Shown here piece after piece: positions 96 to 29,586 of a stretch of DNA of 64,000 nucleotides. A program made the translations under genes and the position numbers. Below the pieces are notes generated by a model, which was not told the origin of the DNA, did not search any database, and saw only the letters and a program-made list of their open reading frames with translations. This stretch comes from Paractinoplanes deccanensis (lineage in GTDB: Bacteria > Actinomycetota > Actinomycetes > Mycobacteriales > Micromonosporaceae): assembly GCF_016862115.1 (NCBI RefSeq), contig NZ_BOMI01000108.1, positions 1 to 64,000 of the forward strand. The letters run 5' to 3'. Position 1 is the first letter of the stretch. The number at the start of each line of letters is the position of its first letter.

Positions 96-203
96 AAGGC
101 GGTGCCTGGCGGCCGCCGGCGGTGGGGTCAGGGTCGTGCTGAGCGCTGGCCGGCGCCGGTCGGGCGGAGGCGCTGGACAGCCATGGGTCGGCGAGGCGCT
201 CCT

Positions 204-3099: not shown

Positions 3100-3119
3100 G
3101 CGGGGCCGCGGTGGGCGCC

Positions 3120-8800: not shown

Positions 8801-8908
8801 GCCGATGAGGGCCCAGGTGCAGAGGTGACTGGCGGGAAACGCGTAGTAGACGGCGGTCAGCGCCAGGATCCACGCACAGAACCCCACGCGAGCGGCTCGC
8901 GTCGTCAT
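5867..8908 (-). CDS. Membrane-anchored PAS-GGDEF-EAL protein (c-di-GMP turnover)
   Basis: This 1013-residue protein makes and/or degrades cyclic di-GMP at the membrane. About nine hydrophobic helices fill residues 1-310. A linker, a PAS domain (YFRTLIQNAADVILIVGDDD), a GGDEF domain with intact RMGGDEFAVL near residue 657 and a C-terminal EAL domain follow. The EAL signature reads ESL near 786, keeping the metal-binding Glu; EITES, DDFGTGYSSL, the catalytic-loop Lys-x-x-x-Ser-Phe and AEGIE are all present, so hydrolysis looks possible. The product-inhibition I-site RxxD upstream of GGDEF is absent (GTAG instead). The ATG giving MTTRAARVGF precedes the first helix. A same-strand oxidoreductase gene ends 79 bp upstream. 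Confidence 0.94.
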   Translation of the reverse strand: MTTRAARVGFCAWILALTAVYYAFPASHLCTWALIGYSSAAMVLLGVRLHRPEHRLPWYLIAAALATFTTGDTWYNLILVLGREPRFPGLADLFYLLVYPLLTGGFLLFVRYRNRGSNRAALLDALVPTVGLGLLSWVYWIAPFTRSHDLSLLEKLVSIGYPLGDVLALAVTLRMLTSPGRRPRALTAIGVAILGLLVSDIFYGQSQLNSDWTLGGPVDFGWIVFYAVMGFMALMPSMRELSAERPPQVSTDMGTRRIVWMAAAALIAPVVLYIEWMNGREIEEARQGVVDAPVIAAAAALMFLLVLARVNGLAGAQRQARARERALRQAGTLLFSAATEQDAARAVRDAVATLVPAGQPYRLSLTAHAGDVPHIPGLRLITADELPAGVPSHGFGHFLYATMPLPGTGRLGAGLLGGDGALLRELLPSFEAYLAQIEVVMQRIGLTGEVNRRESEAYFRTLIQNAADVILIVGDDDLIRYASPSAATVLGHHDLEGTALSALIAVSHHDAMREILGSLRSGQGELDAPDLAVLRADGSLVQVECTGRDLRDDPTVRGVVLTVRDVTERRRLEQDLSHLAFHDGLTGLANRVLFRNRLDEEFAAAAESGLELGVLFVDLDDFKEVNDTLGHAVGDELLVAVGQRIDEVVGTAGTAARMGGDEFAVLVADDAEQVAARLVEALAVPVELGDGLGGTHIVSGAASVGVATNADADSPTELLRHADLALYQAKGGDKGTWQRYRPELHTEMVKRLETRAALHEAIEDDQLRVMYQPIVDLHSGEIVAVESLVRWQHPTRGLLGPYHFIEVAEESGVIVEIGGWVLREALAQLAAWRAADPATTLRYVSVNVSARQFRTPGFVDQVRRAIADAGARPEWLLLEITESLLLRDADQVAADLRTLRALGVRIAIDDFGTGYSSLSYLRQMPVDVLKVDKSFIDDILGSEQQRALVDAIVTLARNLDLTVVAEGIEDAGQRAALAGMGCPYGQGYLFSKPVWPGEIPALAHAMVPSPARA

Positions 8909-8987
8909 CCGCCCTCCGATCGGCTCCTGGGGACGGCTGGCCGGCGCCGTCCCGGATCCCATCGGGTGCCGGTGGCGATGTCTTAGC

Positions 8988-10022
8988 TTAAGACCAGGGA
9001 GGTACGTCAACGGTCACCGTCTCACCGGTATCGGCGGCCTCCTCGATCGCCAGCGCCACCAGGTGATCGTGGGCGCCGTCGGCCAGCGGGTAGGGCGGCG
9101 GGCCCTCGCCGCGCACCCAGGACGCCATGCGCCGCAGCATGGTGGCCATCGCGATCTCCTCGTCGTTCCAGCGGCGCCCCGGGAAGGGGTTGCGGAAGAG
9201 TACCCGCTCGCCGAGGGCGATGGTGTCGGTGTCGAAATCGTCGAGGTCGAGGTCGTATCCGGTCTGCCGGCGCACCAGCGGGGCCCGCAGGATCGTGCGC
9301 GGCCCGGCGAGCCGGACGATCTCGTCGTTCTGCAGCTCGCCGTGGCTGCCGCGGACCACGATGCGCCGGAAGCGCAGCTGGTTGTGCCACTGGTTGTCGG
9401 TGAAGTCGTACAGCCCGGACCGGCCGTCGCCGAAGTCGAGGGTGGCGATCGTGGTCGTCGCGGCGCGCGGCTCGGCGTCGTCGGTCCAGCCGGCCCGGGT
9501 CAGCGGGTCGACCAGCGGCGCCGTGGTGCGGGTGGCGCGCACGGTGACGGGGCCGCGGCCCACGCCCAGATAGCCGCGGATCAGCGACACCGCGTGGTAC
9601 ATGTGCGTCGAGGAGACCTGCACCTGGGCCGGCTCGCCGATCAGCCCGTCGCGCACCGCCGCCAGGCGCGCCGCGTGCGCCGGTACCAGCAGGTACTGCT
9701 CGGCGACCTGTACCAGGCCGGTGTCGCCGGTGAGCTGCCACAGCGCCCGCAGCTTCGCCTCGTCCGGCGCGGGCGGCGTCTCGGCGAGCACGGGCAGCCC
9801 TCGCTCGACCGCCTCCATGATCACGCTCGGGTTGGCCGCCCACGGCACGGCGGTGACCACGAAGTCGGGCCGCAGCTCGTCGAGTGAGGTGAAGACCGGC
9901 ACCGGCAGCTCGCGCGGGGTGCGCACCACAGCGCCCACGCACTCGACGTCGGGCAGCGCCGCCGCCAGCCGCCAGAACATCTCCGCCCGCCACCCGGAGC
10001 CGACCACCGCGAACGACGTCAT
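8988..10022 (-). CDS. Gfo/Idh/MocA family NAD(P)-dependent oxidoreductase
   Basis: This 344-residue protein has an N-terminal Rossmann fold beginning at the start codon (SFAVVGSGWRAEMFWRLAAAL, pattern GxGxxA/F), the family segment DFVVTAVPWAANPSVIMEAVERGLPVLAETPPAPD and a C-terminal alpha/beta substrate domain. The usual catalytic EKP is replaced by ETP, so Lys is missing at that position; some family members lack it. Sugar or polyol substrates are usual. Its start codon overlaps, on the other strand, an ATG of the divergent MFS frame. Confidence 0.85.
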   Translation of the reverse strand: MTSFAVVGSGWRAEMFWRLAAALPDVECVGAVVRTPRELPVPVFTSLDELRPDFVVTAVPWAANPSVIMEAVERGLPVLAETPPAPDEAKLRALWQLTGDTGLVQVAEQYLLVPAHAARLAAVRDGLIGEPAQVQVSSTHMYHAVSLIRGYLGVGRGPVTVRATRTTAPLVDPLTRAGWTDDAEPRAATTTIATLDFGDGRSGLYDFTDNQWHNQLRFRRIVVRGSHGELQNDEIVRLAGPRTILRAPLVRRQTGYDLDLDDFDTDTIALGERVLFRNPFPGRRWNDEEIAMATMLRRMASWVRGEGPPPYPLADGAHDHLVALAIEEAADTGETVTVDVPPWS

Positions 10023-10077
10023 GGGAGACACACTAGATCCACGGTTATGGCCGTTTCCAGACGGGAACGTTCGCCTG

Positions 10078-11601
10078 GTGACCTCGGATCCCCAGCGCTG
10101 GCGGGCGCTCACCGTCGCCCTCGTCGCCGGCTTCATGACCCTGCTCGACGTCAGCATCGTGAACGTGGCGCTGCCGTCGATCCGCGACGAGCTGCAGCTG
10201 AGCTCCGGCGAGCTCCAGTGGGTCCTGTCCGGCTACGCGCTCACCTTCGGCCTGCTGCTGGTGCCGGCCGGCCGGTTCGGCGACGCCCGGGGCCGCCGCA
10301 ACGTTTTCATCGCCGGCCTCGTGCTGTTCACCTTGGCGAGCGCGGCCGCGGGCCTCGCCACCTCGGCGCTGTGGCTGATCGTCGCCCGGCTCGTGCAGGG
10401 CGCGGCGGCCGGCGTGATGAACCCGCAGATCTCCGGCCTGATCCAGGAGATGTTCGACCCGCCGGAGCGGGCCCGCCCGTTCGGCCTGCTCGGCGCCACG
10501 ATCGGCATCTCCACGGCGGTCGGCCCGCTGCTCGGCGGCCTGCTCATCGCCGTGTTCGGCGAGGCGGAGGGCTGGCGCTGGATCTTCTACCTGAACATCC
10601 CGATCGGCGTGGTCGCGGTGATCCTCGGGCGGCGCTGGATCCCCGTACGCCGGTCGGAGAAGTCCCGGGAGAGCCTGGACCCCGTCGGCGTCGCGCTGCT
10701 CGGCCTCGGCGTCGTGCTGTTCCTGCTGCCGCTGGTGCAGGAGCGCGAGTGGCAGGGCAACGCCAAGTGGCTGCTCGCGGTGGCCGGCGCGCTGGTGCTG
10801 GCGCTGTTCGTGGTCTGGGAGCGCCGCTTCGGGCGCGAGCACACGGCGCTGGTCGAGCTGGGCCTGTTCAAGGTCCGGTCGTACGGGCTGGGCGCGCTCA
10901 TCGGCCTGCTCTACTTCGCCGGCTTCACCACGATCTTCTTCATCTACACGCTCTACCTGCAGAGCGGCCTCGGCTACAGCGCCCTGCTCGCCGGCCTGGC
11001 GGTGACCCCGTTCGCGCTCGGCTCCGCGGTGGGCGCGGCGGTCAGCGGCCGGTTCGTCAACCGCTATGGCCGCCACCTGGTCGTGCTGGGCCTGGTCATG
11101 GTGATCGTGGGGCTGGCCGGGGCCGACCTGGCGCTGACCGTGGTGGAGGGGCACGCCGGGGGAGCGGCGGCCGCGTTCCCGCTGCTGGTCGCCGGCCTGG
11201 GCAGCGGGCTGGTGATCAGCCCGAACCAGAACCTGTCGCTCTCGCAGGTGCCGGTGGCCCGGGCGGGCAGCGCCGGCGCGGTGCTGCAGACCGGCCAGCG
11301 GATCGGCACGGCGATGGGCATCGCGGCGGTGGGCGCGCTGTTCTTCGCCCGGCTGGCGGACTCGCGGGGCGACTGGGGCTCGGCGTTCCGGGGCGCGCTG
11401 TGGCTGACGGTCGCCTTCGTGGTGGTCGCGCTGGCGGCGGCGCTCACGGACGTGCTGACGGGCCGCCGTCTCCCGGGATCGGCCGGCCCTCGGGACGGCG
11501 GCCCTCGGGAGGGCGGTCGCCGGGAGCATGGCCGGCACGAGCCGGGCCGGCACGCAGCAGGTGCCGCACCGCAGCCGTCGTCCGTTCCCGATCGCCGGTA
11601 G
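10078..11601 (+). CDS. MFS drug efflux transporter, DHA2 (14-TM) type
   Basis: This protein of about 507 residues has the DHA2 signature FMTLLDVSIVNVALPSIRDEL in helix 1, the motif GRFGDARGRRNVF between helices 2 and 3, and the antiporter motif C region GATIGISTAVGPLLGGLL in helix 5. The length fits 14 helices, implying proton-coupled export of drugs or metabolites. GTG 10078 is chosen; an in-frame ATG at 10021 would add 19 residues but overlaps the divergent oxidoreductase start. The last 45 codons encode a Gly/Arg/His-rich tail that overlaps the converging TetR gene by 158 nt. That TetR is its likely regulator. Confidence 0.9.
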   Translation: MTSDPQRWRALTVALVAGFMTLLDVSIVNVALPSIRDELQLSSGELQWVLSGYALTFGLLLVPAGRFGDARGRRNVFIAGLVLFTLASAAAGLATSALWLIVARLVQGAAAGVMNPQISGLIQEMFDPPERARPFGLLGATIGISTAVGPLLGGLLIAVFGEAEGWRWIFYLNIPIGVVAVILGRRWIPVRRSEKSRESLDPVGVALLGLGVVLFLLPLVQEREWQGNAKWLLAVAGALVLALFVVWERRFGREHTALVELGLFKVRSYGLGALIGLLYFAGFTTIFFIYTLYLQSGLGYSALLAGLAVTPFALGSAVGAAVSGRFVNRYGRHLVVLGLVMVIVGLAGADLALTVVEGHAGGAAAAFPLLVAGLGSGLVISPNQNLSLSQVPVARAGSAGAVLQTGQRIGTAMGIAAVGALFFARLADSRGDWGSAFRGALWLTVAFVVVALAAALTDVLTGRRLPGSAGPRDGGPREGGRREHGRHEPGRHAAGAAPQPSSVPDRR

Positions 11602-12142
11602 CGAGCAGGTCGAGCAGGGCCCCGCGCAGCACGGCCAGCACGGCGGTGCGCTGCGCGAGGCCGGGCGCTGTGTCCCGTACCGCGGCGGGCTGGGTCGTCG
11701 CGAGGATGCCGAGCCAGTCGTCGACCGTCGACCTGGCGAAGCCGGCCCAGGGGCCCTCGGTCTCGAGGAGCGAACGGGCGTAGGCCTCGGCCCACAGCCG
11801 CAGCACCGGGCGGTGGGCGTCGTCGGCGAGCCACTCCCAGACGGCCTCGGCGGCGTTGTCCAGGCCGGCCTCGCTCCCGAGCGACGCCGGCTCGCCGGGG
11901 CGGTCCCGGGCGGGCGGCGCCAGCTCGGCGCGAGCCCGGGTGATCAGTGTCAGCTCGTCGGCGCGGGCGCGCTCCAGCAGGGCGCGGATCAGGCCGTCCT
12001 TGCTGCCGAACAGGAACAGCAGCACGCGCGGGCTCGACCCGACGGCGCTCGCGAGGGGGCGCAGCGACAGCTCCGCGATGCCGTGGTCGCGGACGTACGC
12101 GTACGCCAGCTCGAGCAGTTCGTCACGCCTGCCTTGACCCAT
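11444..12142 (-). CDS. TetR family transcriptional regulator
   Basis: This 232-residue repressor has an N-terminal helix-turn-helix (RDELLELAYAYVRDHGIAELSLRPLASAVGSSPRVLLFLFGSK, residues about 5-50) in which the usual Y-Y-H-F is replaced by L-L-F-L-F. The C-terminal ligand domain is all-helical, with a TetR_C-type core (LRLWAEAYARSLLE). The final 40 residues are low-complexity and lie inside the 3' end of the MFS gene. A perfect palindrome sits 19 bp before its start, between it and the divergent GNAT gene, which points to autoregulation and control of that GNAT; control of the overlapping MFS is also plausible. Confidence 0.88.
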   Translation of the reverse strand: MGQGRRDELLELAYAYVRDHGIAELSLRPLASAVGSSPRVLLFLFGSKDGLIRALLERARADELTLITRARAELAPPARDRPGEPASLGSEAGLDNAAEAVWEWLADDAHRPVLRLWAEAYARSLLETEGPWAGFARSTVDDWLGILATTQPAAVRDTAPGLAQRTAVLAVLRGALLDLLATGDRERTTAAVRHLLRAGPARAGHAPGDRPPEGRRPEGRPIPGDGGPSARP

Positions 12143-12160
12143 GGGGGTCGAGTATGCCCT

Positions 12161-12180
12161 ACTGAAACGAACGTTTCAGT
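12161..12180. promoter_or_regulatory. Palindromic TetR operator
   Basis: The sequence ACTGAAACGAACGTTTCAGT is a perfect inverted repeat with 9-bp arms and a 2-bp centre. It lies between the divergent starts of the TetR gene (12142) and the GNAT gene (12192), 11 bp before the latter, and is placed to block both promoters. Confidence 0.85.
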
Positions 12181-12191
12181 GGGAGGGTGCG

Positions 12192-12665
12192 ATGATCCGC
12201 GAACTGGGCCGGCCGGGGGACCTGGGCTGGGTGATCAAGGCACACGGCGAGGTGTACGCGGCGGAGTTCGGCTGGGACACGTCGTTCGAGGCGCTGGTGG
12301 CGCGGATCGTGGCCGACTACGCGGGCTCGCGCGATCCCGAGCGGGAGAACGCGTGGATCGCGGAGGTGGACGGGCGCCGCGCCGGGAGCGTCTTCTGCGT
12401 CGACGGCGGCGACGACGTGGCGGTGCTGCGGATCCTGCTGGTGCACCCGTCGGCGCGCGGCCACCGGCTGGGGGAGCGGCTCGTCGACACGTGTATCGAC
12501 TTCGCGCGGCAAAACGGATATGTCCGAATGAAGCTCTGGACGAACGATGTGCTGGTCGCCGCCCGCAAGATCTATCTGGCGCGCGGTTTCAAGCTGGTCG
12601 ACGAGCAGCCGCACCGCAGCTTTGGCGCCAACCTGATAGGCCAGAATTACGAAATGTCGCTTTAA
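12192..12665 (+). CDS. GNAT acetyltransferase (MarR-linked type domain)
   Basis: This 157-residue GNAT resembles the C-terminal acetyltransferase half of MarR-GNAT fusions: RPGDLGWVIKAHGEVYAAEFGWD at the N-terminus, LRILLVHPSARGHRLGERLVDTCIDFAR as acetyl-CoA loop and helix, and KLWTNDVLVAARKIYLARGFKLV at the end. Here the DNA-binding half is absent, and a separate divergent TetR gene shares its promoter palindrome. ATG 12192 is the first start after the operator; the upstream frame runs through the operator. The substrate is unknown; a TetR partner suggests detoxification of an amine ligand. Confidence 0.86.
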   Translation: MIRELGRPGDLGWVIKAHGEVYAAEFGWDTSFEALVARIVADYAGSRDPERENAWIAEVDGRRAGSVFCVDGGDDVAVLRILLVHPSARGHRLGERLVDTCIDFARQNGYVRMKLWTNDVLVAARKIYLARGFKLVDEQPHRSFGANLIGQNYEMSL

Positions 12666-12678
12666 ACCGGCGGCGCCG

Positions 12679-13596
12679 CTAGCCCGCGGCCAGCGCGTCC
12701 ACCAGCCGCCGCGCCGACCCCGCGAGGTTCCACCGCTCCGCCAGCGCCAGCAGCGCGTCGGGATCCTTCGGCGCCCGCGGCATCGTCGCATCGAAATCGG
12801 GCAGCTTCACGTCGAGCGCCACCTTGCACACCGGCAGTGCCTTGTCCAGATAGTCCCGGGCCGCCGCCAGCTTGGTCTTGAGCCCCGGCGCGAAGCCCGC
12901 GGCCGGATCGTCGAGCGCCGCCAGGATCTCCGCCACCCCGCCGTAGCGGGCGATCAGCCGCGCCGCCGTCTTCTCGCCGACGCCCGCCACGCCCGGCAGG
13001 CCGTCGCTCGGGTCGCCGCGCATGGCCGCGAAGTCCGCGTACCACCGGGCGGGCACGCCGTACTTCTTCTCCACCAGCGCGTTGTCCGCGTCCTCGAGCT
13101 TCGCCACGCCGCGGCCGCAGTACAAAAGCCGCGTTCCACGTGAATCATCCACCAGCTGGAACAGGTCGCGGTCGCCGGACACGACCTCCACGGGAGCCGG
13201 CTGGGTGGCCGCGAGGGTGCCGAGCACGTCGTCCGCCTCGTATCCCTCGACGCCGAAAGCGGGAATGCCCACCGCGGCCAGCGTCTCCAGCAGCACCGGG
13301 ATCTGGCGCTCCAGCGCGGCCGGCACCTCCTCGACGTCGCCGTGCGCGACCCGGTGCTTCTTGTACGAGGGCACGAGCGCCACCCGCCACGCCGGCCGCC
13401 AGCTCGCGTCGAGCGCGCAGACCACCCGATCGGGGTGCCGGGTGCGGATCAGCTGGGCGAGCATGTCGAGGAAGCCGCGGATCGCGTTGACCGGCTCGCC
13501 CGCGGGCGTCTGCGCCGCCTTCTCCGGGATGCCGTGGAAGGCGCGGAAGTAGAGGCTGGGCGCGTCGACGGCGAGCAGTGGCTTCACGAAGGCCAC
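12679..13596 (-). CDS. 5'-3' exonuclease (Pol I N-terminal domain family)
   Basis: This 305-residue stand-alone flap nuclease/5'-3' exonuclease is homologous to the N-terminal domain of DNA polymerase I. Metal-binding acidic residues are visible in LLAVDAPSLYFRAF, DRVVCALDASWRPAWR, GYEADDVLGTLAA and VSGDRDLFQLV. The helix-hairpin-helix follows as GLPGVAGVGEKTAARLIARYGG. It acts on 5' flaps or RNA primers in DNA repair and replication. A GTG (13596) is used; GTG giving VKPLLAVDA three codons later is equally possible. It converges on the GNAT gene and is divergent from the acyl-CoA dehydrogenase. Confidence 0.92.
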   Translation of the reverse strand: MAFVKPLLAVDAPSLYFRAFHGIPEKAAQTPAGEPVNAIRGFLDMLAQLIRTRHPDRVVCALDASWRPAWRVALVPSYKKHRVAHGDVEEVPAALERQIPVLLETLAAVGIPAFGVEGYEADDVLGTLAATQPAPVEVVSGDRDLFQLVDDSRGTRLLYCGRGVAKLEDADNALVEKKYGVPARWYADFAAMRGDPSDGLPGVAGVGEKTAARLIARYGGVAEILAALDDPAAGFAPGLKTKLAAARDYLDKALPVCKVALDVKLPDFDATMPRAPKDPDALLALAERWNLAGSARRLVDALAAG

Positions 13597-13613
13597 AATA
13601 GGGTATCGCGCAC

Positions 13614-13633
13614 CTTAATGAACGTTCGTTAAG
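13614..13633. promoter_or_regulatory. TetR-type palindromic operator
   Basis: CTTAATGAACGTTCGTTAAG is a 20-bp inverted repeat with one mismatched pair, 9 bp before the acyl-CoA dehydrogenase start and 17 bp from the exonuclease start. Its GAACGTTC core with TTAA flanks is typical of TetR-family sites. No TetR gene is adjacent. Confidence 0.7.
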
Positions 13634-13642
13634 CTGACCCTC

Positions 13643-14785
13643 GTGACGGTAGACCGGCTCCTGCCCACGCCCGAGGCCCACGACCTGCTCGACCTGACGC
13701 GCGAGCTCGCCACCCGCGAGCTGGCCGGCAAGGCGGACGCCTTCGAGGCCCGCGGCGAGTTCCCTCGCGACGTGCTGCGCACCCTCGGGCGCTCCGGCCT
13801 GCTCGGGTTGCCCTACCCGGCGGAGGTGGGCGGCGCGGACCAGCCGTACGAGGTCTATCTGCAGGTCCTCGAGATCCTCGCCGGCTCGTGGCTGGCCATC
13901 GCCGAATCGGTCAGCGTCCACACCCTCGCCTGCTATCCCGTCTACGCCCACGGCACGGCCCTGCAGCGCAAGCAGCTGCCCGACATGCTCGGCGGCGAGC
14001 TGCTCGGCGCGTACTGCCTGTCCGAGCCCGCCGGCGGCTCCGACGCCGCCAACCTCACCACCCGCGCCGTGCCCGACGGCGACGGCTGGCGCGTCGACGG
14101 CACGAAGGCCTGGATCACCCACGCCGGCCAGGCCGACTTCTACAACGTCTTCTGCCGCACCGGCGGCCCCGGCGCCAAGGGCATCTCGTGCCTGCTCGCC
14201 GACGCCGGCACCCCCGGCCTGCTGCCGCAGAAGCCCGAGCGCACCATGGGCCTGCGCTCGTCGGCCCCCGCCCCGATCGTCTTCGAGTCGTGCCACCTGC
14301 CCGCCGACCGCCTGGTGGGCGAGCTCGGCGGCGGCTTCACCATCGCCATGGAGGCCCTCGACGCCGGTCGCCTCGGCATCGCCGCCTGCGCGGTCGGCCT
14401 CGCCCAGGCCGCCCTCGACTACGCCTCGTCCTACGCCCGCGAACGCGTCCAGTTCGGCCGCCCCATCGGCGACTTCCAGGGCATCGGCTTCCTGCTCGCC
14501 GACATGGCCACCCAGATCTCCGCCGCCCGCGCGCTGCTGCTGTCGGCGGCCCGCCTCAAGGACGCCGGCCGCCCGTTCTCCATCGAGGCCGCCAAGGCCA
14601 AGCTCTTCGCCACCGACACCGCCATGCGCGTGACCACCGACGCCGTCCAGGTCCTCGGCGGCGCCGGCTACGTGACCGACCATCCGGTCGAGCGCTGGTT
14701 CCGCGAGGCGAAGGTGCTGCAGATCGTCGAGGGCACCAACCAGATCCAACGGCTCGTCATCGCCCGTTCCCTGACCAAGCCTTAG
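13643..14785 (+). CDS. Acyl-CoA dehydrogenase
   Basis: This 380-residue FAD flavoenzyme oxidises an acyl-CoA to the 2,3-enoyl-CoA. Visible signatures are YCLSEPAGGSDAANLTTRAV (FAD/substrate loop), GTKAWITHAGQADFYNVF, RERVQFGRPIGDFQGIGFLLADM and DAVQVLGGAGYVTDHPVERWFREAKVLQIVEGTNQIQRLVIAR. The last segment contains the position of the catalytic base, Glu in VEGTNQ, as in short/medium-chain enzymes. It starts at GTG 13643 directly after the palindrome, so a TetR-type regulator (fatty-acid or branched-chain degradation type) probably controls it. It is a single gene. Confidence 0.95.
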   Translation: MTVDRLLPTPEAHDLLDLTRELATRELAGKADAFEARGEFPRDVLRTLGRSGLLGLPYPAEVGGADQPYEVYLQVLEILAGSWLAIAESVSVHTLACYPVYAHGTALQRKQLPDMLGGELLGAYCLSEPAGGSDAANLTTRAVPDGDGWRVDGTKAWITHAGQADFYNVFCRTGGPGAKGISCLLADAGTPGLLPQKPERTMGLRSSAPAPIVFESCHLPADRLVGELGGGFTIAMEALDAGRLGIAACAVGLAQAALDYASSYARERVQFGRPIGDFQGIGFLLADMATQISAARALLLSAARLKDAGRPFSIEAAKAKLFATDTAMRVTTDAVQVLGGAGYVTDHPVERWFREAKVLQIVEGTNQIQRLVIARSLTKP

Positions 14786-16649: not shown

Positions 16650-17117
16650 GTGGAAGAGATCGACCGGGCGATCGTGAGCGCCCTCACCGCTGACGGCCGC
16701 CTGTCGTACACCGACCTCGCCGAGCGGGTGGGGCTCAGCGTGTCGGCGGTGCACCAGCGGGTGCGGCGCCTCGAACAGCGCGGCGTGATCTCCGGCTACA
16801 CGGCCAAGGTCTCGTACGAGGCCCTCCAGTTGCCCCTGACCGCGTTCGTGGCGATCCGGCCCTTCGATCCGTCCCAGCCCGATGACGCCCCGGAACGGCT
16901 GGCCCACCTCCCCGAGATCGACTCGTGCTACTCGGTGGCGGGCGAGGACTTCTACATGCTTCTGGTACGGGTGGGCAGCCCCGCCGATCTGGAACGCCTC
17001 CTCCAGGAGATCCGGACCGCCGCGAACGTCACCACCCGGACGACCGTCGTGCTTTCCACGCCGTACGAGAACCGCCCGCCCCGCATAGCGCCCGCCGTCA
17101 CCGAACCGGCCGACTGA
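16650..17117 (+). CDS. Lrp/AsnC family transcriptional regulator
   Basis: This 155-residue regulator has an N-terminal winged helix-turn-helix (IDRAIVSALTADGRLSYTDLAERVGLSVSAVHQRVRRLEQRGVISGYTA). A C-terminal RAM/AsnC effector domain follows (CYSVAGEDFYMLLVRVGSPADLERLLQEI). Lrp proteins form multimers that sense amino acids or other small ligands. GTG 16650 begins the HTH directly. It lies between an SDR and a small membrane-protein gene on the same strand, either of which could be a target. Confidence 0.93.
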   Translation: MEEIDRAIVSALTADGRLSYTDLAERVGLSVSAVHQRVRRLEQRGVISGYTAKVSYEALQLPLTAFVAIRPFDPSQPDDAPERLAHLPEIDSCYSVAGEDFYMLLVRVGSPADLERLLQEIRTAANVTTRTTVVLSTPYENRPPRIAPAVTEPAD

Positions 17118-21640: not shown

Positions 21641-22996
21641 TCAGGCCGTTTCGTTCGCCTGCTGTTTGCGCCACCAGTCCTGGCCGGACTCGGGGAGGGT
21701 GTCGATCGGGTCGTAGTAGGCGTAGAGCTTCGACAGGGCCTCGGCGTCGTCCTGTTCGATGGAGGTGCGGTAGTTCTTGGTCCAGTAGGAGATGCCGTGT
21801 TCGCGGTCGTACTCGGCGACCATGTGGACCCAGCGCTTGCCGACGAAGGGTACGTCGCAGACGATGCGGGGCGTGGCGTAGCCGGGGAGGTAGCCCATCA
21901 TGTCGTGCTGCAGCTGCTGGGCGTGCCAGACGGGGACGCGCCAGTGCTCGGCGTTGGGGATCATGTCGCACATGTAGAAGTAGTACGGCAGGATGCCGGC
22001 CTCTCCTTGCAGGGCGAAGCACAGGTCGAGCAGGTCCGCGGTGGTGGCGTTGACGCCGCGCATGAGGACGCCCTGGTTGCGGACGTCGCGGACGCCGACC
22101 TCGAGCAGGGTCTGCGCGGCGCGGGCGACCAGGGGGGTCAGCGAGTTGACGTGGTTGACGTGGGTGTGCACGGCCAGGTTGACGCCGCGGCGCTGGGCGG
22201 TGATGGCGACGCGGTGCAGGCCCTCGACGACGTCGTCCTGCAGCCAGTGCTGGGGCAGGCCCATGAGCGCCTTGGTGGCGAGGCGGATGTCGCGCACGGT
22301 CGGCACGGAGAGCAGGCCCATCAGGTACGTCTCGAGTTGCTTCCAGGGCACGTTGGCGACGTCGCCGCCGCTGACCACGACGTCGCGTACGCCGGGGTGG
22401 GCCTTGAGGTAGTCGAGGTGGGCCTGGTAGCGGTCGACGGGCTTGAGGGTGAGGCGCAGCTTGTCGACGGTGGGGGTGCTGTTGCCGACGAGGTCCATGC
22501 GGGTGCAGTGGCCGCAGTATTGCGGGCAGGTCGACAGCAGCTCGGCGAGGACCTTGGTGGGGTAGCGGTGGGTGAGGCCCTCGGCGACCCACATGTCGTG
22601 CTCGTGGAGGCTGTCGCGGGTGGCGTGCGGGTGTGACGGCCAGTCGAGGTGGCGGTCGGTGGCGACCGGGATCATGTAGCGGCGGATCGGGTCGGCGTAG
22701 AACGCGTCGGTGGTGAGCTCGCCGGTGGGCACCATGGTGTTGAGCATCTGGGGCGGGACCAGCATGGACATGGTGGCGAGGCGCTGCTGGTCGGTCTCGA
22801 GGTCGGTGTAGAAGCGCTCCTCGAGCAGGTCGCCCATGACGGCGCGGAGCTGCTTGATGTTCTTGACGCAGTTGACGCGTTGCCATTGGGCGGACTGCCA
22901 CTGCTCGTCGGTGACGTCGCGCCAGCCGGGGAACCGGGTCCAGTCCGGTTCGATCAGGGGGCGTCGCTCGTACACGTAGGGCTGGTTGTCGTCCAA
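21641..22996 (-). CDS. kamA: Lysine 2,3-aminomutase (radical SAM)
   Basis: KamA converts L-lysine to L-beta-lysine using SAM, a [4Fe-4S] cluster and PLP. The radical-SAM motif is CPQYCGHC (CX3CX2C; Cys157, 161 and 164 of the 451-residue form). Other family segments are QWQRVNCVKNIKQL near the N-terminus and DVVVSGGDVANVPW. I chose TTG 22996 because AGGAGG sits 5 nt upstream, and the protein then begins DDNQPYVYERRPLIEPDW as relatives do. A TTG at 23038 would add 14 residues but has no ribosome site. It is divergent from kdd-kamDE-kal-mutL, and would supply their substrate. Confidence 0.93.
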   Translation of the reverse strand: MDDNQPYVYERRPLIEPDWTRFPGWRDVTDEQWQSAQWQRVNCVKNIKQLRAVMGDLLEERFYTDLETDQQRLATMSMLVPPQMLNTMVPTGELTTDAFYADPIRRYMIPVATDRHLDWPSHPHATRDSLHEHDMWVAEGLTHRYPTKVLAELLSTCPQYCGHCTRMDLVGNSTPTVDKLRLTLKPVDRYQAHLDYLKAHPGVRDVVVSGGDVANVPWKQLETYLMGLLSVPTVRDIRLATKALMGLPQHWLQDDVVEGLHRVAITAQRRGVNLAVHTHVNHVNSLTPLVARAAQTLLEVGVRDVRNQGVLMRGVNATTADLLDLCFALQGEAGILPYYFYMCDMIPNAEHWRVPVWHAQQLQHDMMGYLPGYATPRIVCDVPFVGKRWVHMVAEYDREHGISYWTKNYRTSIEQDDAEALSKLYAYYDPIDTLPESGQDWWRKQQANETA

Positions 22997-23127
22997 CGGT
23001 GCCTCCTGATCGATCGTTCGGACCGCCTCAACGTACAAGATGATTTTCGGTCTAGTGAAGGTCTGCCCGGAGGATTTACGGTATGGATACGTGCTGGGCT
23101 CCTTGATTTTTACGATGGGTGGGTGTG
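22997..23127. promoter_or_regulatory. Divergent promoter region kamA / kdd operon
   Basis: About 130 bp separates the two chosen start codons and must carry both promoters of the lysine cluster. It contains the kamA ribosome site (AGGAGG, complement of 23002-23007) and is richer in A/T than its surroundings. I see no clear palindrome. Confidence 0.5.
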
Positions 23128-24186
23128 ATGGCGTCTGTGGGACTCGATCGGGTGGTGGAGCCCGAGGGGGTGCTGCCGCAGGCGGCGTGGCGGCTCGACG
23201 CGAGCCCCGAGGTGGGGCCGGACGAGGTGCGGGTGCGGGTCGAGCGGCTCAACCTGGACGCGGCGAGCTTCCGGCAGTTGTCGGAGAAGCACGGCGGTGA
23301 CGGGGCCGCGGTGCGCGCCGAGGTGCTGGAGATCGTCGGGTCGCGCGGCAAGATGCACAACCCGGTGACCGGCTCGGGCGGCATGCTGATCGGTGTGGTC
23401 GACGAGGTGGGCCCGCGGTCGCCGCTCGGGGTGAAGCCGGGGGACCGGGTGGCGACGCTGGTGTCGCTCACGCTGACGCCGCTGGCGATCACCGATGGCC
23501 TCGCCGGGTGGGACGGGCTCAGCGAGCAGGTGCCGGCGGAGGGGACCGCGATTCTCTTCGGCCGCTCGATCGTCGGTGTGCTCCCGGACGATCTCGCTCC
23601 GGAGCTGGCCCTGGCGGTGTACGACGTGTGCGGTGCGCCGGCGCTCACCGACCGCCTTGTCAGGAAATATCGGACAGAAGCGCCGAGGTCGGGCGCGGGC
23701 GAAGCGGTCGACGCTCCCTCCGTGGCGGTGCTCGGCGGCGCCGGCAAGAGCGGCTCCCTCGCCCTCACCGCGGCCCGGCTCGCCGGCGCCCGGACTGTCG
23801 GCATTGTCCGCGACGAAGTCGAGCGCGCCGCGATCGCGGAGATCGCGGACGTGGCACGGGTGGCCGATGCCCGCAATCCGGTCGAGGTGGCGGCCGCGGT
23901 CACGGACGCGCTGGGCGGGCCGGCGACGATCACGGTGGTCTGCGTGGACGTCCCCGGCTGCGAGCACGGTGCGATCCTCGCCACGGCCGAGGGCGGCACG
24001 GTGATCTTCTTCTCGATGGCGACGAGCTTCCCGGCGGCGGCGCTGGGCGCGGAAGGCCTGGCAGCGGACGTGACGATGCTGATCGGCAACGGGTACGTGC
24101 CGGGGCATGCCGCGTTCGCCGTCGATCTGCTGCGCCGCGTCCCGGCGGTCCGGTCCCTCTTCGAGGCCCGCGTCGCGGGACACTAA
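23128..24186 (+). CDS. kdd: L-erythro-3,5-diaminohexanoate dehydrogenase
   Basis: Kdd oxidatively deaminates 3,5-diaminohexanoate to 5-amino-3-oxohexanoate with NAD(P). This 352-residue protein has the diagnostic N-terminal stretch GKMHNPVTGSGGMLIGVV and a Rossmann domain with VAVLGGAGKSGSLALTAARLAGA. Other Kdd-like stretches are VCVDVPGCEHGAI and GTVIFFSMATSFPAAALGAEGL. ATG 23128 is chosen over a GTG three codons upstream. It is the first gene of a tight operon, 5 bp before the amidohydrolase. The kamDE-kal context makes the assignment firm. Confidence 0.93.
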   Translation: MASVGLDRVVEPEGVLPQAAWRLDASPEVGPDEVRVRVERLNLDAASFRQLSEKHGGDGAAVRAEVLEIVGSRGKMHNPVTGSGGMLIGVVDEVGPRSPLGVKPGDRVATLVSLTLTPLAITDGLAGWDGLSEQVPAEGTAILFGRSIVGVLPDDLAPELALAVYDVCGAPALTDRLVRKYRTEAPRSGAGEAVDAPSVAVLGGAGKSGSLALTAARLAGARTVGIVRDEVERAAIAEIADVARVADARNPVEVAAAVTDALGGPATITVVCVDVPGCEHGAILATAEGGTVIFFSMATSFPAAALGAEGLAADVTMLIGNGYVPGHAAFAVDLLRRVPAVRSLFEARVAGH

Positions 24187-24191
24187 CGCCC

Positions 24192-25706
24192 ATGATTGAG
24201 GTGCTCTACACCCACGGCCGCTTCTACTCACCCGCCGACCCGCGTGCCACCGCGATGCTGGTCCGCGACGGCAGGATCGCCTGGCTCGGATCGAGCGACG
24301 ACACCCCGTCCGCCGCCGCGACCGTCGATCTCGGGGGTGCGCTGGTCACGCCCGCTTTCGTCGACGCGCATCTGCACGCGACCGACACGGGCCTGGCCGC
24401 CGAGGGTCTCGACCTGTCGGGTGTGCGGTCGGCCGGTGAGCTGCTCGGCGCCGTGGCCGCGTTCGCCCGGACCCGCCCGGCGGACGGTGTGGTGCACGGG
24501 CACGGCTGGGACGAGTCGACCTGGGCGGAGCAGACCCCGCCGACGGCCGAGGAGCTGGAGCGGGCCGGCGAGGGCCGCCGGGTCTATCTGTCGCAGGCGT
24601 CGGTGCATTCGGCGCTCGTGTCGGCGTCGCTGCTGGGCGCCGCCGCCGGCGAGCCGGGTTTCGACGCTTCCGGCTGGGTGCGGGAGCAGGCCCATCATGC
24701 CGTACGGGCGGTAGCGCTCGAGTCCTTGACGCCCGCCCAGCGCACGCGGGCGCAGCGGGCCGCGCTGGAGCTCGCCGCGTCGCGGGGCATCGCCGCGGTG
24801 CACGAGTGCGGCGGGCCGGGCACGTCGAGCGAGGACGACTTCCGGTCGGTGCTGGCGCTGTCCGGCCGCGGCCTGCCGCAGGTGTTCGGCTACTGGGGGG
24901 AGCTGGGCGCCGCCGAGAAGGCCCGCGAGCTGGGCGCGGTGGGTGCGGCGGGGGATCTGTACGCCGACGGTGCGCTCGGGTCGCGCACCGCGTCGCTGCG
25001 GGAGCCGTTCGCCGACGGTGACCACGGGCACGGGGAGGCGTTCCTGACCGCGGAGCAGGCCGCCGAGCATCTGGTCGACTGTGTGCGGGTGGGGGTGCAG
25101 GGCGGCTTCCACGCGATCGGCGACGCCGCGATCGAGACGGTCCTGGAGGGGTTCGCGCTCGCCGCCAAGCGGGTCGGCGTGGACGAGCTGCGCGAGGGCC
25201 GGCACCGGGTCGAGCACGTCGAGCTGATCGACAAGGCGATGATCGCGCGGATGGTGGAGTTCGGGGTGATCGCCTCGGTGCAGCCGGTGTTCGACGCGCT
25301 GTGGGGCGGGCCGGATCAGATGTACGCGCAGCGCCTGGGCGTGGAGCGGGCGATGGCGTCGAACCCGATCGGGCAGATGCACGCGACCGGGGTGCTGCTG
25401 GCGTTCGGCTCGGACTCGCCGGTGACGCCGCTGGACCCGTGGGCGGTGGTGCGGGCCGCGTCGGCGCCGCGCAACCCGGTGTACCGGATGAGTGTGCGGG
25501 CGGCGTTCGCGGCGTCGACCCGGGGTGGGTGGCGCGCGGCCGGGGTGGACGGGGCGGGGGTGCTGGCGCCGGGCGCGTCGGCCAGTTTCGCCGTGTGGGA
25601 GACCCCGGACGGCGTACGCGACGGCCTGCCGGATGTCAGTGGCGGGGCGTCGCCGGTGTGCCTGCGCACGGTGCTGCACGGCGAGACGATCTACGAAAAG
25701 GGATAG
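24192..25706 (+). CDS. YtcJ-like metal-dependent amidohydrolase within the lysine operon
   Basis: This 504-residue protein belongs to the amidohydrolase_3 (YtcJ/N-acyl hydrolase) group. It shows the metal motif VDAHLHATDTG, a catalytic-region DGALGSRTASLREPFADGDHGHGEAF, the metal histidine in FHAIGDAAIETVL, HRVEHVELID and the metal Asp in AFGSDSPVTPLDPW. The family cleaves amide or N-acyl bonds, often in N-acyl amines or formamides. It is tightly packed between kdd (5 bp) and kamD (4 bp) and is not part of the known anaerobic lysine pathway. It may release a free amine or open a lactam of a pathway compound; that is inference. Confidence 0.88.
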   Translation: MIEVLYTHGRFYSPADPRATAMLVRDGRIAWLGSSDDTPSAAATVDLGGALVTPAFVDAHLHATDTGLAAEGLDLSGVRSAGELLGAVAAFARTRPADGVVHGHGWDESTWAEQTPPTAEELERAGEGRRVYLSQASVHSALVSASLLGAAAGEPGFDASGWVREQAHHAVRAVALESLTPAQRTRAQRAALELAASRGIAAVHECGGPGTSSEDDFRSVLALSGRGLPQVFGYWGELGAAEKARELGAVGAAGDLYADGALGSRTASLREPFADGDHGHGEAFLTAEQAAEHLVDCVRVGVQGGFHAIGDAAIETVLEGFALAAKRVGVDELREGRHRVEHVELIDKAMIARMVEFGVIASVQPVFDALWGGPDQMYAQRLGVERAMASNPIGQMHATGVLLAFGSDSPVTPLDPWAVVRAASAPRNPVYRMSVRAAFAASTRGGWRAAGVDGAGVLAPGASASFAVWETPDGVRDGLPDVSGGASPVCLRTVLHGETIYEKG

Positions 25707-25710
25707 GTGG

Positions 25711-27267
25711 ATGGCGGGGAAGCTGGATCTGGATCCGCGGGTGGTGCGTGAGGCGCGCGCGCTCGCGGCGCGGGCGGGGCAGCCCGTGGTCGACCTCGCG
25801 CGCTCGCACACGACGGTGTCGGTGGAGCGGGCGGTGCTGCGCCTGGCCGGGGTGCGCGGGGCCGACCAGGACGGTATTCCCTGGGTGAACCGGCTGGTCG
25901 ACGCGGTGCGCGCGGACGTGGGGCTGGAGCACGGGGTGGCCGTGCCGGTGTTCCACGCGATGCGCGCCACCGGCGTCGACGACGTGACGGTGCTGGCGCA
26001 GAAGGCCGCCGCGGGGGCCGTGCGCTTCGGCGTACCGCTGAAGAAGGCGGACGTGACGGCGGCCCGCAGGATGGCGCGCAAGGCGACCGGCGACGGCCTG
26101 CGGACGATCGACCGGCGCCGCGCCGAGCGGGAGCGGATGATCAAGCGGTACGGGGATCCGGCGCAACGGCCGTGGATCTACCTGATCGTGGCGACCGGCG
26201 ACATCCTGGAGGACATCCCGCAGGCGCAGGCGGCCGCGCGGGCCGGCGCGGACGTGATCGCGGTGATCCGCTCGACCGGGCAGTCGCTGCTCGACTACGT
26301 GCCGGAGGGGGCGACCCGGGAGGGCTTCGCCGGCACGTACGCGACGCAGGAGAACTTCCGGCTGATGCGCGCCGCGCTGGACGAGACGTCGAAGGAGCTG
26401 GGCCGCTACGTGCGGCTGACGAACTACGCGTCCGGGCTGTGCATGCCGGAGATCGCCGCGCTGGCCGGCCTGGAACGGCTCGACATGATGCTCAACGACT
26501 CGATGTACGGCATCCTGTTCCGCGACATCAACCCGATCCGCACCTTCGTCGACCAGCGGTTCAGCCGCCAGGTGCACGCCCGCGCCGGCATCATCATCAA
26601 CACCGGCGAGGACAACTACCTGACCACGGCCGACGCGGTCGAGGCGGCGCACACGGTGACGGTGTCGCAGCTGCTCAACGAGTTCTTCGCGCACGAGGCG
26701 GGCCTGGCCGACTGGCAGCTCGGCCTCGGCCACGCGTTCGAGATCAACCCGGAGCTGCCGGAGTCGTTCCGGCTCGAGCTGGCGCACGCGCTGCTGGCCC
26801 GCGAGCTGTTCCCGGACGCGCCGCTGAAGTGGATGCCGCCGACCAAGCACATGACCGGTGACGTGTTCCGCGGCAACCTGCTCGACGGGTTCTTCAACCT
26901 GGTGGGCGCGCTGACCGGGCAGGGCATCCTGCTGGTCGGCATGATGACCGAGGCGGTGGTGACGCCGTGGCTGTCCGACCGCGACATCGCCCTGCAGAAC
27001 GTGCGGTACGTGCTGACCGGCGCCGGCAACCTGCACGAGGACTTCGTCCCGGCGCCGGGCGGCTTCATCCAGCGGCGCGCCCACGCCGTGCTCGCCGAGG
27101 CGGTCGACCTGCTCAAGCGGATCGAGGGCGACACGCTGCTCAACGCCATCGCCGACGGCACCTTCGGCATCATGAAGCGCCCCGCGGACCGCGGCAAGGG
27201 CCTCGACGGCGTCGCGAAGCACGCCGAGGACTACTACAACCCCGTGACGGAGGCGCTGGAATCATGA
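25711..27267 (+). CDS. kamD: Lysine 5,6-aminomutase alpha subunit
   Basis: KamD with KamE moves the epsilon-amino group of beta-lysine (or D-lysine) to C5, using adenosylcobalamin and PLP. This 518-residue subunit forms the TIM barrel. Family segments are visible throughout: IPWVNRLVDAV, IYLIVATGDILEDIPQAQAAARAGADVIAVIRSTGQSLLDYVPEG, YVRLTNYASGLCMPEIAALAG, NDSMYGILFRDINPIRTFVDQRFSR, IINTGEDNYLTTADA and KWMPPTKHMTGDVFRG. The stop overlaps the kamE start by 4 nt (ATGA), implying translational coupling. Length and motifs look complete. Confidence 0.96.
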   Translation: MAGKLDLDPRVVREARALAARAGQPVVDLARSHTTVSVERAVLRLAGVRGADQDGIPWVNRLVDAVRADVGLEHGVAVPVFHAMRATGVDDVTVLAQKAAAGAVRFGVPLKKADVTAARRMARKATGDGLRTIDRRRAERERMIKRYGDPAQRPWIYLIVATGDILEDIPQAQAAARAGADVIAVIRSTGQSLLDYVPEGATREGFAGTYATQENFRLMRAALDETSKELGRYVRLTNYASGLCMPEIAALAGLERLDMMLNDSMYGILFRDINPIRTFVDQRFSRQVHARAGIIINTGEDNYLTTADAVEAAHTVTVSQLLNEFFAHEAGLADWQLGLGHAFEINPELPESFRLELAHALLARELFPDAPLKWMPPTKHMTGDVFRGNLLDGFFNLVGALTGQGILLVGMMTEAVVTPWLSDRDIALQNVRYVLTGAGNLHEDFVPAPGGFIQRRAHAVLAEAVDLLKRIEGDTLLNAIADGTFGIMKRPADRGKGLDGVAKHAEDYYNPVTEALES

Positions 27268-27998
27268 GCATCGTCAGGCCGTACGGGGACACGACCGGTG
27301 ACGGGATGGTGCAGCTGTCGTTCACGCTGCCCGTGCCGCACGACAAGCGCGCCGAGGGCGCCGCGATCCAGCTCGCCAACAAGATGGGCATGGACCCGGC
27401 GCTGCTGGTGCACGCCAAGCCGATGGGCGACGGGTTCACCTTCTTCGTCGTGTACGGGCGGGTGAGCCACCTGGTCGACACCGGCCAGGTGCAGGTGGTG
27501 GAGCGCGACTTCCCGCTGCTGAGCGCCAAGGAGGTCAACGCGGTGATCAAGCGGCGGCTGCGGCGCCGGCTCAACGTGGTGGGCGCCTGCATCGGCACGG
27601 ACGCGCACACGGTCGGCATCGACGCGATCCTCAACGTCAAGGGGATCGCGGGGGAGAAGGGCCTGGAGTACTACCGGGAGCTGTCGGTGACCAACATGGG
27701 CGCGCAGGTGTCCGTGCCGGATCTGGTCGAGACCGCCCGCCGGGAGAAGGCCGACGCCGTGCTGGTGTCGCAGGTCGTCACCCAGCGCGACGCGCACCTG
27801 CAGAACACGCGGGCCATGTCGGCGGCGTTCCGCGAGGCGCTGCCGGCCGGCAAGCGGCCGCTGCTGATCGTGGGCGGGCCGCGCTTCGACGAGCTGATGG
27901 CGGCCGAGCTCGGCGTCGACCGGATCTTCGGGCGGGGCACCACCCCGCGCGAGGTCGCCTCGTATCTCGTACACGCGCTCGTGGGAGGCAGCAAGTGA
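27264..27998 (+). CDS. kamE: Lysine 5,6-aminomutase beta subunit (B12-binding)
   Basis: This 244-residue subunit carries the cobalamin and the PLP lysine. The base-off B12 motif DxHxxG is present as DAHTVG (Asp113, His115). Lys126 lies 11 residues after the cobalt-ligand histidine (HTVGIDAILNVK), the same spacing as His133 and Lys144 in the Clostridium sticklandii enzyme, so it should form the PLP Schiff base. The N-terminal dimerisation domain MSIVRPYGDTTGDGMVQLSFTLPVP is typical. It overlaps kamD and kal by 4 nt on each side. Confidence 0.96.
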   Translation: MSIVRPYGDTTGDGMVQLSFTLPVPHDKRAEGAAIQLANKMGMDPALLVHAKPMGDGFTFFVVYGRVSHLVDTGQVQVVERDFPLLSAKEVNAVIKRRLRRRLNVVGACIGTDAHTVGIDAILNVKGIAGEKGLEYYRELSVTNMGAQVSVPDLVETARREKADAVLVSQVVTQRDAHLQNTRAMSAAFREALPAGKRPLLIVGGPRFDELMAAELGVDRIFGRGTTPREVASYLVHALVGGSK

Positions 27999-28360
27999 TC
28001 ACTGTGACGCATCGGCGGTACGTGCCGTACTCGCACGCGCACTACGCGGGCAACCTGGTCGACGGGGCGTACTCGCTCGGGTTGTTCGGCGACGTGGCGA
28101 CCGAGGTGTGCATCCGGCTCGACGGTGACGAGGGGCTGTTCGCCTCGTACGACGACGTGCAGTTCAAGGCGCCCGTGCAGGCCGGCGACGTCCTGGAGGT
28201 CACGGCGACCGTGGTGCAGATGGGCACCCGGTCGCGCCGGATCGCGTTCGAGTCGCGGGTGGTGTGCCGGGGCACGGGCGGGTCCGCGGCGATGGTGCTT
28301 CCGACGCCGATCGTCGCGGTGACCGCCACCGGCACGGTCGTCGTGCCGCCGAAGAATTGA
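27995..28360 (+). CDS. kal: 3-aminobutyryl-CoA ammonia lyase
   Basis: Kal removes ammonia from L-3-aminobutyryl-CoA to give crotonyl-CoA, the last nitrogen-releasing step of lysine fermentation. This 121-residue hotdog-fold protein reads HRRYVPYSHAHYAGNLVDGAYSLGLFGDVATEV at the N-terminus and SYDDVQFKAPVQAGDVLEVTATVV in the core, as in known Kal proteins. GTG start within GTGA overlapping kamE; GGGAGG lies 7 nt upstream. Its stop overlaps the next start. Its presence implies that 3-aminobutyryl-CoA is made, although no cleavage enzyme is encoded here. Confidence 0.92.
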   Translation: MITVTHRRYVPYSHAHYAGNLVDGAYSLGLFGDVATEVCIRLDGDEGLFASYDDVQFKAPVQAGDVLEVTATVVQMGTRSRRIAFESRVVCRGTGGSAAMVLPTPIVAVTATGTVVVPPKN

Positions 28361-29586
28361 CGGCGGCGGTCTGCGTCGACGTCGGCTCGACGTACACGAA
28401 AGCCGCCCTGATCGACCTGGACGGCGCCCGGCTGGTGCGCCGCGCCGAGGTGCCGACGACCTCGGCCGGTGACGTGCTGACCGGCCTGGACCAGGCGGTG
28501 GCGGCGGTGGGTGGCGGCGATCAGTTGTACGTGTGCTCGTCGGCCGGTGGCGGGCTGCGGCTCGCGGTCGTCGGGTACGAGGCGCTGGTCACCGCCGAGG
28601 CCGGGCACCGGGTGGGGCTGTCGGCGGGCGCGCAGGTCGTGCACGTGGCCGCGGGCCTTCTGGACGCGGCGGGGTTGTCCGCTCTGCGCGCGGCGCGGCC
28701 GGACGTGATCCTGCTCGTCGGTGGGACGGACGGCGGCGACGGCGACGTGCTGCTGCACAACGCCCGGCGGCTCGGCACCGCCCGGATCAGGGTGCCGGTG
28801 GTCGTGGCGGGCAACGCGGACGTGCGCGACGAAGCGGCCGCGCTGCTCGGCGGCCGGGCGACGATCGCCGGCAACGTCCTGCCGGCGATCGGCGTGCTCG
28901 ACCCGGGCCCGGCGCGCGCGGCGATCCGCGAGGTGTTCCTGCGGCACGTGATCGGCGGCAAGAAGCTGTCGAAGGGCCGCCGGTTCGCCGCGCTGGTGCG
29001 GGCGGCCACGCCCGACGCCGTGCTCGCCGGCGTGGAGGTCCTCGCGGACGTCACCGGCGCCGGGGTGCTCGTCGTCGACGTGGGCGGCGCGACCACGGAC
29101 GTGTACTCGGCCCTGCTGCCGGACGCGGAGAGCGAGTCGGGGCCGCGCCGGGATGTGGCGGGCACCCTCTGGCGCTCCCGGACCGTGGAGGGCGATCTGG
29201 GGGTCGCCGTGGGTGCCGCCGGCACGGCCGAGGCGGCGGCCGCCGAGAAATTGGCACTTCCGCTCGCCGGTGACCGTGGGTTAGCCGCGGCGGCCGCCAC
29301 GATCGCGTTGCGGCGGCACGCGCGCGGCCACTCGTCCGGTCCCGGTCAGCCGCGCACCGGCGGCCGGGACCTGCGCGACGTGCGTCTCGTGGTGGGCTCC
29401 GGCGGGGTGCTGCGCCACGGCGGCGGCGCATATGTGCTGGACGCGGTGCTGACCGACACCGCCGGCGGCTGGGCGGCGCCCACCGGCGCCCGCGCGGTGA
29501 TCGACGATCAATACGTGCTCGCCGCCGCCGGGCTGCTCGCGAATGATCACCCTCACGTCGCGGCGGCCCTGGTGAACAGCCTGTAG
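28357..29586 (+). CDS. MutL-like ATPase, putative aminomutase reactivase
   Basis: This 409-residue protein belongs to the glutamate-mutase MutL family of actin/Hsp70-like ATPases. Visible are the phosphate-1 loop VCVDVGSTYTKAALIDLDG, ILLVGGTDGGDGDVLLHNARRL, and the phosphate-2 loop GVLVVDVGGATTDVYSAL. Members accompany B12-dependent mutases and are thought to help exchange damaged cobalamin. As last gene of the operon it probably services KamDE, similar to KamB of anaerobes (inference). TTG 28357 is the likely start: it overlaps the kal stop as TTGA and directly precedes the ATPase motif. The region 330-345 is Gly/Pro-rich and variable. Confidence 0.88.
   Translation: MTAAVCVDVGSTYTKAALIDLDGARLVRRAEVPTTSAGDVLTGLDQAVAAVGGGDQLYVCSSAGGGLRLAVVGYEALVTAEAGHRVGLSAGAQVVHVAAGLLDAAGLSALRAARPDVILLVGGTDGGDGDVLLHNARRLGTARIRVPVVVAGNADVRDEAAALLGGRATIAGNVLPAIGVLDPGPARAAIREVFLRHVIGGKKLSKGRRFAALVRAATPDAVLAGVEVLADVTGAGVLVVDVGGATTDVYSALLPDAESESGPRRDVAGTLWRSRTVEGDLGVAVGAAGTAEAAAAEKLALPLAGDRGLAAAAATIALRRHARGHSSGPGQPRTGGRDLRDVRLVVGSGGVLRHGGGAYVLDAVLTDTAGGWAAPTGARAVIDDQYVLAAAGLLANDHPHVAAALVNSL

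Follow-up and report, generated by a model that had tools for sequence, protein, structure and literature searches.

The breakdown of lysine to crotonyl-coenzyme A (crotonyl-CoA) and its enzymes are known from anaerobes, and PMC3149608 gives kamA, kamD, kamE, kdd, kce and kal as the genes for lysine fermentation in clostridia and fusobacteria. The same source describes a variant in Candidatus Cloacamonas acidaminovorans, in which a transaminase (Kat) replaces kal. Here we describe a cluster of the same enzyme families in the actinobacterium Paractinoplanes deccanensis. It lies in a stretch of 64,000 nucleotides (contig NZ_BOMI01000108.1, positions 1 to 64,000; “the window”) of a draft genome of 10.6 Mb in 260 contigs, and its steps would follow the same order. 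In contrast to the clostridial and fusobacterial pathway, kce is unlinked here, KamA belongs to a divergent subfamily, and no clear MutS-type KamC was found in the window genome; the related loci, among the best 80 of at least 594 in the genome collection, are nearly all actinobacterial. As with the Kat variant, one step differs between lineages, but here kal is kept and it is kce that lies elsewhere. Actinobacteria are mainly aerobic. Crotonyl-CoA and acetoacetate would presumably go to oxidation in these organisms rather than to butyrate.

We consider it highly probable that the window genome encodes a complete, catabolic pathway from lysine to crotonyl-CoA with an unlinked kce. This reading is based on the genes present, on their catalytic residues and on their shared inheritance and loss; from these we infer which reactions run on which substrates and that lysine supports growth. 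KamA would convert L-lysine to beta-lysine, which KamDE, with B12 and pyridoxal phosphate (PLP), would convert to 3,5-diaminohexanoate and Kdd further to 5-amino-3-oxohexanoate. A Kce-type BKACE encoded on another contig (C132) would then combine this compound with acetyl-CoA to give 3-aminobutyryl-CoA and acetoacetate. Kal would split 3-aminobutyryl-CoA into ammonia and crotonyl-CoA, the latter entering beta-oxidation. A 3-oxoacid CoA-transferase could activate the acetoacetate; one such pair is present at C207:2941-4118 and shows no tie to the cluster. A MutL/GlmL-type protein probably maintains the activity of the B12 enzyme.

The lysine-degradation cluster itself was confirmed as real. kamA is located on the minus strand (21641..22996), and diverging from it on the plus strand are kdd (L-erythro-3,5-diaminohexanoate dehydrogenase, 23119..24186), an amidohydrolase gene, kamD and kamE (alpha and beta subunits of lysine/beta-lysine 5,6-aminomutase, 25711..27267 and 27267..27998), kal (27995..28360) and a MutL/GlmL-type gene. 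The products of kdd, kamD, kamE and kal exceed the curated NCBIfam cut-offs (NF052381, 261 bits against 200; NF052384, 702 against 600; NF052385, 349 against 280; NF052388, 183 against 160), and KamD additionally scored 820 bits with PF09043. KamE carries H114 and K125, which we take to be the B12-binding histidine and the PLP-binding lysine. An earlier note on this DNA had placed kamA, kdd, kamD, kamE and kal here and assigned them to four steps of the pathway. This assignment holds, as do the KamE residues, which the note numbered His115 and Lys126 from a different start, and its interpretation as a whole is partly supported. The amidohydrolase and MutL/GlmL-type genes were not mentioned in its reasoning.

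The best 80 kamD loci were compared by tblastn, with flanks of up to 10 kb. Together with kamD, we found kamE in 80 of 80 loci, kal in 79, kdd in 73, kamA in 71, the amidohydrolase gene in 56 and mutL in 39; these counts are lower bounds, because the flanks are limited to 10 kb and several contigs end sooner. The recurrence of kamE, kal, kdd and kamA beside kamD excludes a chance grouping, and the layout is kept in many genera. Among the 80, the closest named locus belongs to Paractinoplanes atraurantiacus (95% identity). As the earlier note had observed, kce is missing from the window cluster; it was likewise found in none of the 80 flanks (0/80), several of which are shortened by contig ends.

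An unlinked candidate for the cleavage enzyme

One option left by the earlier note was that kce lies elsewhere in the genome. A whole-genome search for BKACE and CoA-transferase genes returned, besides the C207 pair, one strong BKACE match at C132:50962-51771 (PF05853, 311 bits; cut-off 24.8) and one weak, distant match on C208. C132 is a contig separate from the window; clustering of kce with kamDE, the usual though not essential arrangement in the lysine fermentation pathway, was not observed. Within the BKACE family (DUF849, PF05853), group G2 is the keto-amino-hexanoate group according to PMC4922564. The top PDB match of the C132 protein is the true Kce 2y7d (201 bits; next BKACE 135), with a near full-length alignment over residues 5-274 of 276. 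Residues E14, H46, H48, R226, E230 and D231 are kept and are invariant in the 39 ortholog loci checked (39/39), and position 14 is G in two BKACE paralogs with 34% identity to the C132 protein. According to structure work on Kce, these positions hold zinc-binding and substrate-binding residues, H46, H48 and E230 being the zinc ligands. The C132 BKACE is a strong candidate for the Kce of the lysine pathway.

To follow the two genes across genomes, we used a sample of 100 relatives (60 of the same genus, window genome included) and a class sample of 246 genomes, six of which are also in the first sample by handle. Before counting, we set aside the BKACEs of G085, G094 and G097 (243-248 bits), whose 34% identity to the C132 protein marks them as paralogs, and that of G201 (36%). 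Among the relatives, kamD was present in 64 genomes and an intact Kce ortholog in 63, all within the 64. Intact orthologs were found in 56 of the 60 genomes in the genus (at least 264 bits on the Kce model) and in 7 of the 40 outside it (69-75% identical), where one carrier, G078, has half of kamD only. In the class sample, with up to 10 BKACE candidates scored per genome, kamD and the Kce ortholog were each found in 48 of 246 genomes (orthologs with 59-100% identity, two partial), and 47 genomes are common to both (Fisher p ~3e-48, kinship ignored). An ortholog with 57-95% identity was also present in all 36 genomes searched that were chosen from the 80 kamD loci. The unlinked BKACE follows kamD across genomes, which supports the option that kce lies elsewhere.

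On C132, kce stands after ygfZ (above the cut-off of a CAF17-like model), with Fur-family and asparaginase-II-family genes close by according to Pfam. Relatives of ygfZ and of the fur-like gene were present in 19 and 18, respectively, of 30 ortholog loci with flanks of ~1.5 kb. The distance between kce and kamD in 13 single-contig congeners is 3.2-4.6 Mb, taking the shorter way round and rounded coordinates and genome sizes. Inspection by eye revealed no lysine genes around kce on C132 and in relatives.

In many actinobacteria (C132 and relatives, L086-L115, L125-L132), the neighbours of kce include fur, ygfZ and an asparaginase-II-family gene, a setting of housekeeping type. A contig labelled as a Spirochaetaceae metagenome-assembled genome (L058) carries an actinobacterial-type kam cluster (KamD 81% identical), and that genome an actinobacterial-type kce (67%); either wrong binning or transfer would account for this.

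Decay of kce in three congeners

Three congeners (G003, G026 and G056) have no kamD, yet a kce frame is kept beside ygfZ in each (relics L142, L143 and L144). At their kam loci (L159, L161 and L160), no tblastn match (E <=0.01) was obtained for kdd, kamD, kamE, kal or mutL. Kept at these loci are kamA (85-92% identity), the amidohydrolase gene (76-80%) and lnt-ppm1-fxsA; rbpA was found in two of them, the region of the third being cut. Relative to the window-genome protein, the kce relics of G003, G026 and G056 have gaps of 63, 21 and 47 residues, respectively, and E14 is replaced by D in all three. Zinc ligands are lost as well: H46 in G003, H48 and E230 in G026, and H46, H48 and E230 in G056. 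We rejected the view that Kce is absent from these genomes and that the weak matches are paralogs, since each is a damaged version of kce in its usual position beside ygfZ. In a tree of KamA, the amidohydrolase (Amh), Lnt and Ppm1 from 26 loci, G003 is placed near the window (support 0.76), and G026 and G056 form a group (support 1.0) next to A. philippinensis (0.999). Given these two places on the tree, two independent losses of the module are the simplest reading.

The ratio of nonsynonymous to synonymous substitution rates (dN/dS) for kce between G026 and G056 was 0.70, with 0.85 for residues 1-180 and 0.35 for residues 181-275. In the same pair, kamA, amh, lnt and ygfZ had ratios of 0.073, 0.15, 0.135 and 0.112, respectively; two intact kce pairs gave 0.095 and 0.142. 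Values for kamA were also low between G003 and the window (0.10) and between G056 and A. philippinensis (0.14). This contrast suggests that the constraint on kce was lost with the module, whereas that on kamA was not. The damage to kce where kdd-kamDE-kal-mutL were lost supports a link of kce to the pathway. The earlier note had held that relics in relatives would speak against its reading; relics do occur in these three congeners, but the fact that kce is damaged there too favours the pathway link.

Both patterns bear on a route without Kce, in which 5-amino-3-oxohexanoate would be activated by a CoA-transferase or ligase and then split by a thiolase. The 3-oxoacid CoA-transferase pair on C207 would suit such a route, which nevertheless leaves unexplained why kamD and the BKACE co-occur (47 shared of 48 and 48) and why kce decays upon loss of kamD. 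We therefore regard it as very unlikely.

Several observations weigh against a complete pathway with an unlinked kce. With the NCBIfam Kce model NF052387, the C132 protein scored 278 bits, below the cut-off of 382, which was reached by 0/100 relatives; two other models gave 207 bits (3-oxoadipate:acetyl-CoA acetyltransferase, cut-off 350) and 146 bits (3,5-dioxohexanoate enzyme, cut-off 430). KamA is under both of its family cut-offs (TIGR00238, 167 against 199.2 bits; AblA, TIGR03820, 159 against 525.4), and the search of the window genome for a MutS-type KamC gave no clear copy. Among the relatives, G032 has kamD without a Kce ortholog; in this genome (93% complete, 560 contigs), kamA is in two frames, kamE has a gap and mutL is in two pieces, so the cluster looks damaged. 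In the class sample, G368 has kamD without an ortholog and G190 (94% complete) an ortholog without kamD. Comparisons of relic with intact kce indicate weaker decay (G026 and A. philippinensis, dN/dS 0.43; G003 and the window genome, 0.35), although less extreme values are expected because part of the branch was functional. In addition, the frames of the relics are open and their last third (residues 181-275) is better conserved than expected of a plain relic, perhaps owing to a non-catalytic role or slow decay.

Other features of the cluster

The Amidohydro_3 amidohydrolase gene lies between kdd and kamD on the plus strand (24189..25706) and encodes the sole extra metabolic enzyme in the cluster. 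The open reading frame calling used for locus clustering did not list this frame in the window, and the gene was searched directly. Its embedding in the operon, with gaps of 2-4 bp, and its presence in 56 of the 80 related kamD loci could suggest that the amidohydrolase is the enzyme of the missing step, acting for instance through cleavage of the 3-oxo acid or through opening of a lactam derived from this acid. However, in the class sample (threshold E <=1e-70, up to six candidates scored per genome), matches were found in 123 of 246 genomes, 97 of which have no kamD, and the homologues in the 122 other genomes are 40-66% identical. In all seven kamD-negative loci examined, the gene adjoins lnt or ppm1, in six of them it is also near rbpA, and no match to kamA, kdd, kamE or kal was found there. 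It stays after the module is lost, as in the three congeners, and gave no match in 13 of the 15 loci named Nocardioides. This distribution indicates that the kam genes sit around an older amh-lnt-ppm1-rbpA block. The amidohydrolase was accordingly rejected as a substitute for Kce, a role that we consider extremely improbable; it is probably not a pathway step, and the different cleavage step proposed in the earlier note as another option finds no support. In the remaining window, lnt, fxsA and rbpA are supported by Pfam, and ppm1 is supported as a family-2 glycosyltransferase, for which we assume the name.

kamA encodes a homologue of the radical-SAM lysine 2,3-aminomutase (E 5e-49 to TIGR00238, under the cut-off). 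A better start than that of the longest frame, which reaches 23038, is probably TTG at 22996, with AGGAGG upstream. The three iron-sulfur cysteines, which the earlier note had rightly described as intact, are invariant in 70/70 aligned homologues, together with R134, H230, D293 and D330 (2a5h numbering), and the likely PLP lysine is one residue earlier than in 2a5h in all 70. R134, D293 and D330 are the substrate residues. Judged by its sequence, KamA is a divergent relative of lysine 2,3-aminomutase with the catalytic residues kept.

The MutL/GlmL-family ATPase gene follows 3' of kal on the plus strand (28357..29586; PF13941, 382 bits; TIGR01319, 219 bits, cut-off 204), and its family makes the protein a probable reactivating factor of the B12 enzyme. 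A 222-residue frame on contig C53 (C53:14926-15021, L116) showed a partial, borderline MutS_V match over 32/188 positions with 29.7-30.4 bits (cut-off 30.2). It is possibly a divergent KamC-like partner, or a chance match.

The divergent intergenic region between kamA and kdd (23039..23118, no strand) contains a direct repeat, GATTT(T/A)CGGT, with copies at 23042-23052 and 23073-23083, 31 bp apart, which may be an operator. By eye, similar repeats are seen in many of 17 aligned loci. Elsewhere in the window, an Lrp/AsnC-type regulator is encoded at 16650-17117, under the cut-offs of single equivalogs. Its single-linkage cluster, which may include paralogs, has members in 46 clustered loci including the window, often 1-6 kb from kamA, and we propose it as a candidate lysine-responsive regulator.

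Possible uses of beta-lysine outside catabolism

G368, the class-sample genome with kamD and no Kce ortholog, has a distant BKACE only (94 bits), and this protein (L121) gave no match in the residue comparison with Kce orthologs. Its kam region (L123, G368:C1:598000-617900, at 6533-14306 and 103-3680) comprises kamA, a kdd-kamD fusion and kamE. The fusion is a single frame of 930 residues that exceeds the cut-offs of both models. The gene after kamE encodes an amino-acid adenylation enzyme (375 bits, cut-off 317), and genes for a flavin reductase, a thioesterase, a luciferase-like monooxygenase and a VioC/GntD-type hydroxylase lie near the kam genes. No match for kal, mutL or the amidohydrolase was found in the 20 kb around the kam genes, kal having been searched within this region only; an amidohydrolase homologue (57%) is present elsewhere in the genome. 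The region is likely a biosynthetic cluster that draws on 3,5-diaminohexanoate or the corresponding keto compound.

This case raises the question of whether the window cluster, too, serves a secondary product rather than catabolism by supplying beta-lysine, 3,5-diaminohexanoate or a keto derivative, a use that the earlier note had offered as its third option. The G368 genes, which lack a nearby kal or kce and have genes for an adenylation enzyme and an amino-acid hydroxylase as neighbours, are consistent with it, as is the retention of kamA in the three congeners once the rest was lost. The window, however, has kal in its cluster and a kce ortholog in its genome, and no biosynthetic cluster was seen among the frames adjoining the cluster (most other window frames were viewed by eye only); moreover, the layout is conserved across many genera. 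We consider this explanation very improbable for the window, for which we retain the catabolic pathway with an unlinked kce. The third option does fit G368, which has neither a Kce ortholog nor kal near its kam genes.

The constraint on kamA after loss of kdd-kamDE-kal-mutL indicates that beta-lysine seems to have another use. Tentatively, and as a possibility that we would not yet call probable, the module may be a junction in actinobacteria and not only a drain: a second use of beta-lysine would keep kamA under selection once catabolism is lost, and in one lineage a Kdd-KamD fusion without Kal and Kce would supply 3,5-diaminohexanoate or 5-amino-3-oxohexanoate, activated by a stand-alone adenylation enzyme for a natural product.

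In a limited literature search covering few subscription journals, we did not find the pathway described in actinobacteria, nor the split layout, the retention of kamA or the biosynthetic-looking case; pathway databases may already list the genes. Our results indicate that many actinobacteria encode an apparently complete version of a pathway described as fermentative, and that its key cleavage enzyme escapes annotation based on gene neighbourhood. Co-inheritance and joint decay give the unlinked BKACE a specific, testable substrate. The findings also point to a non-catabolic use of beta-lysine and to a biosynthetic branch that may be built from the same enzymes.

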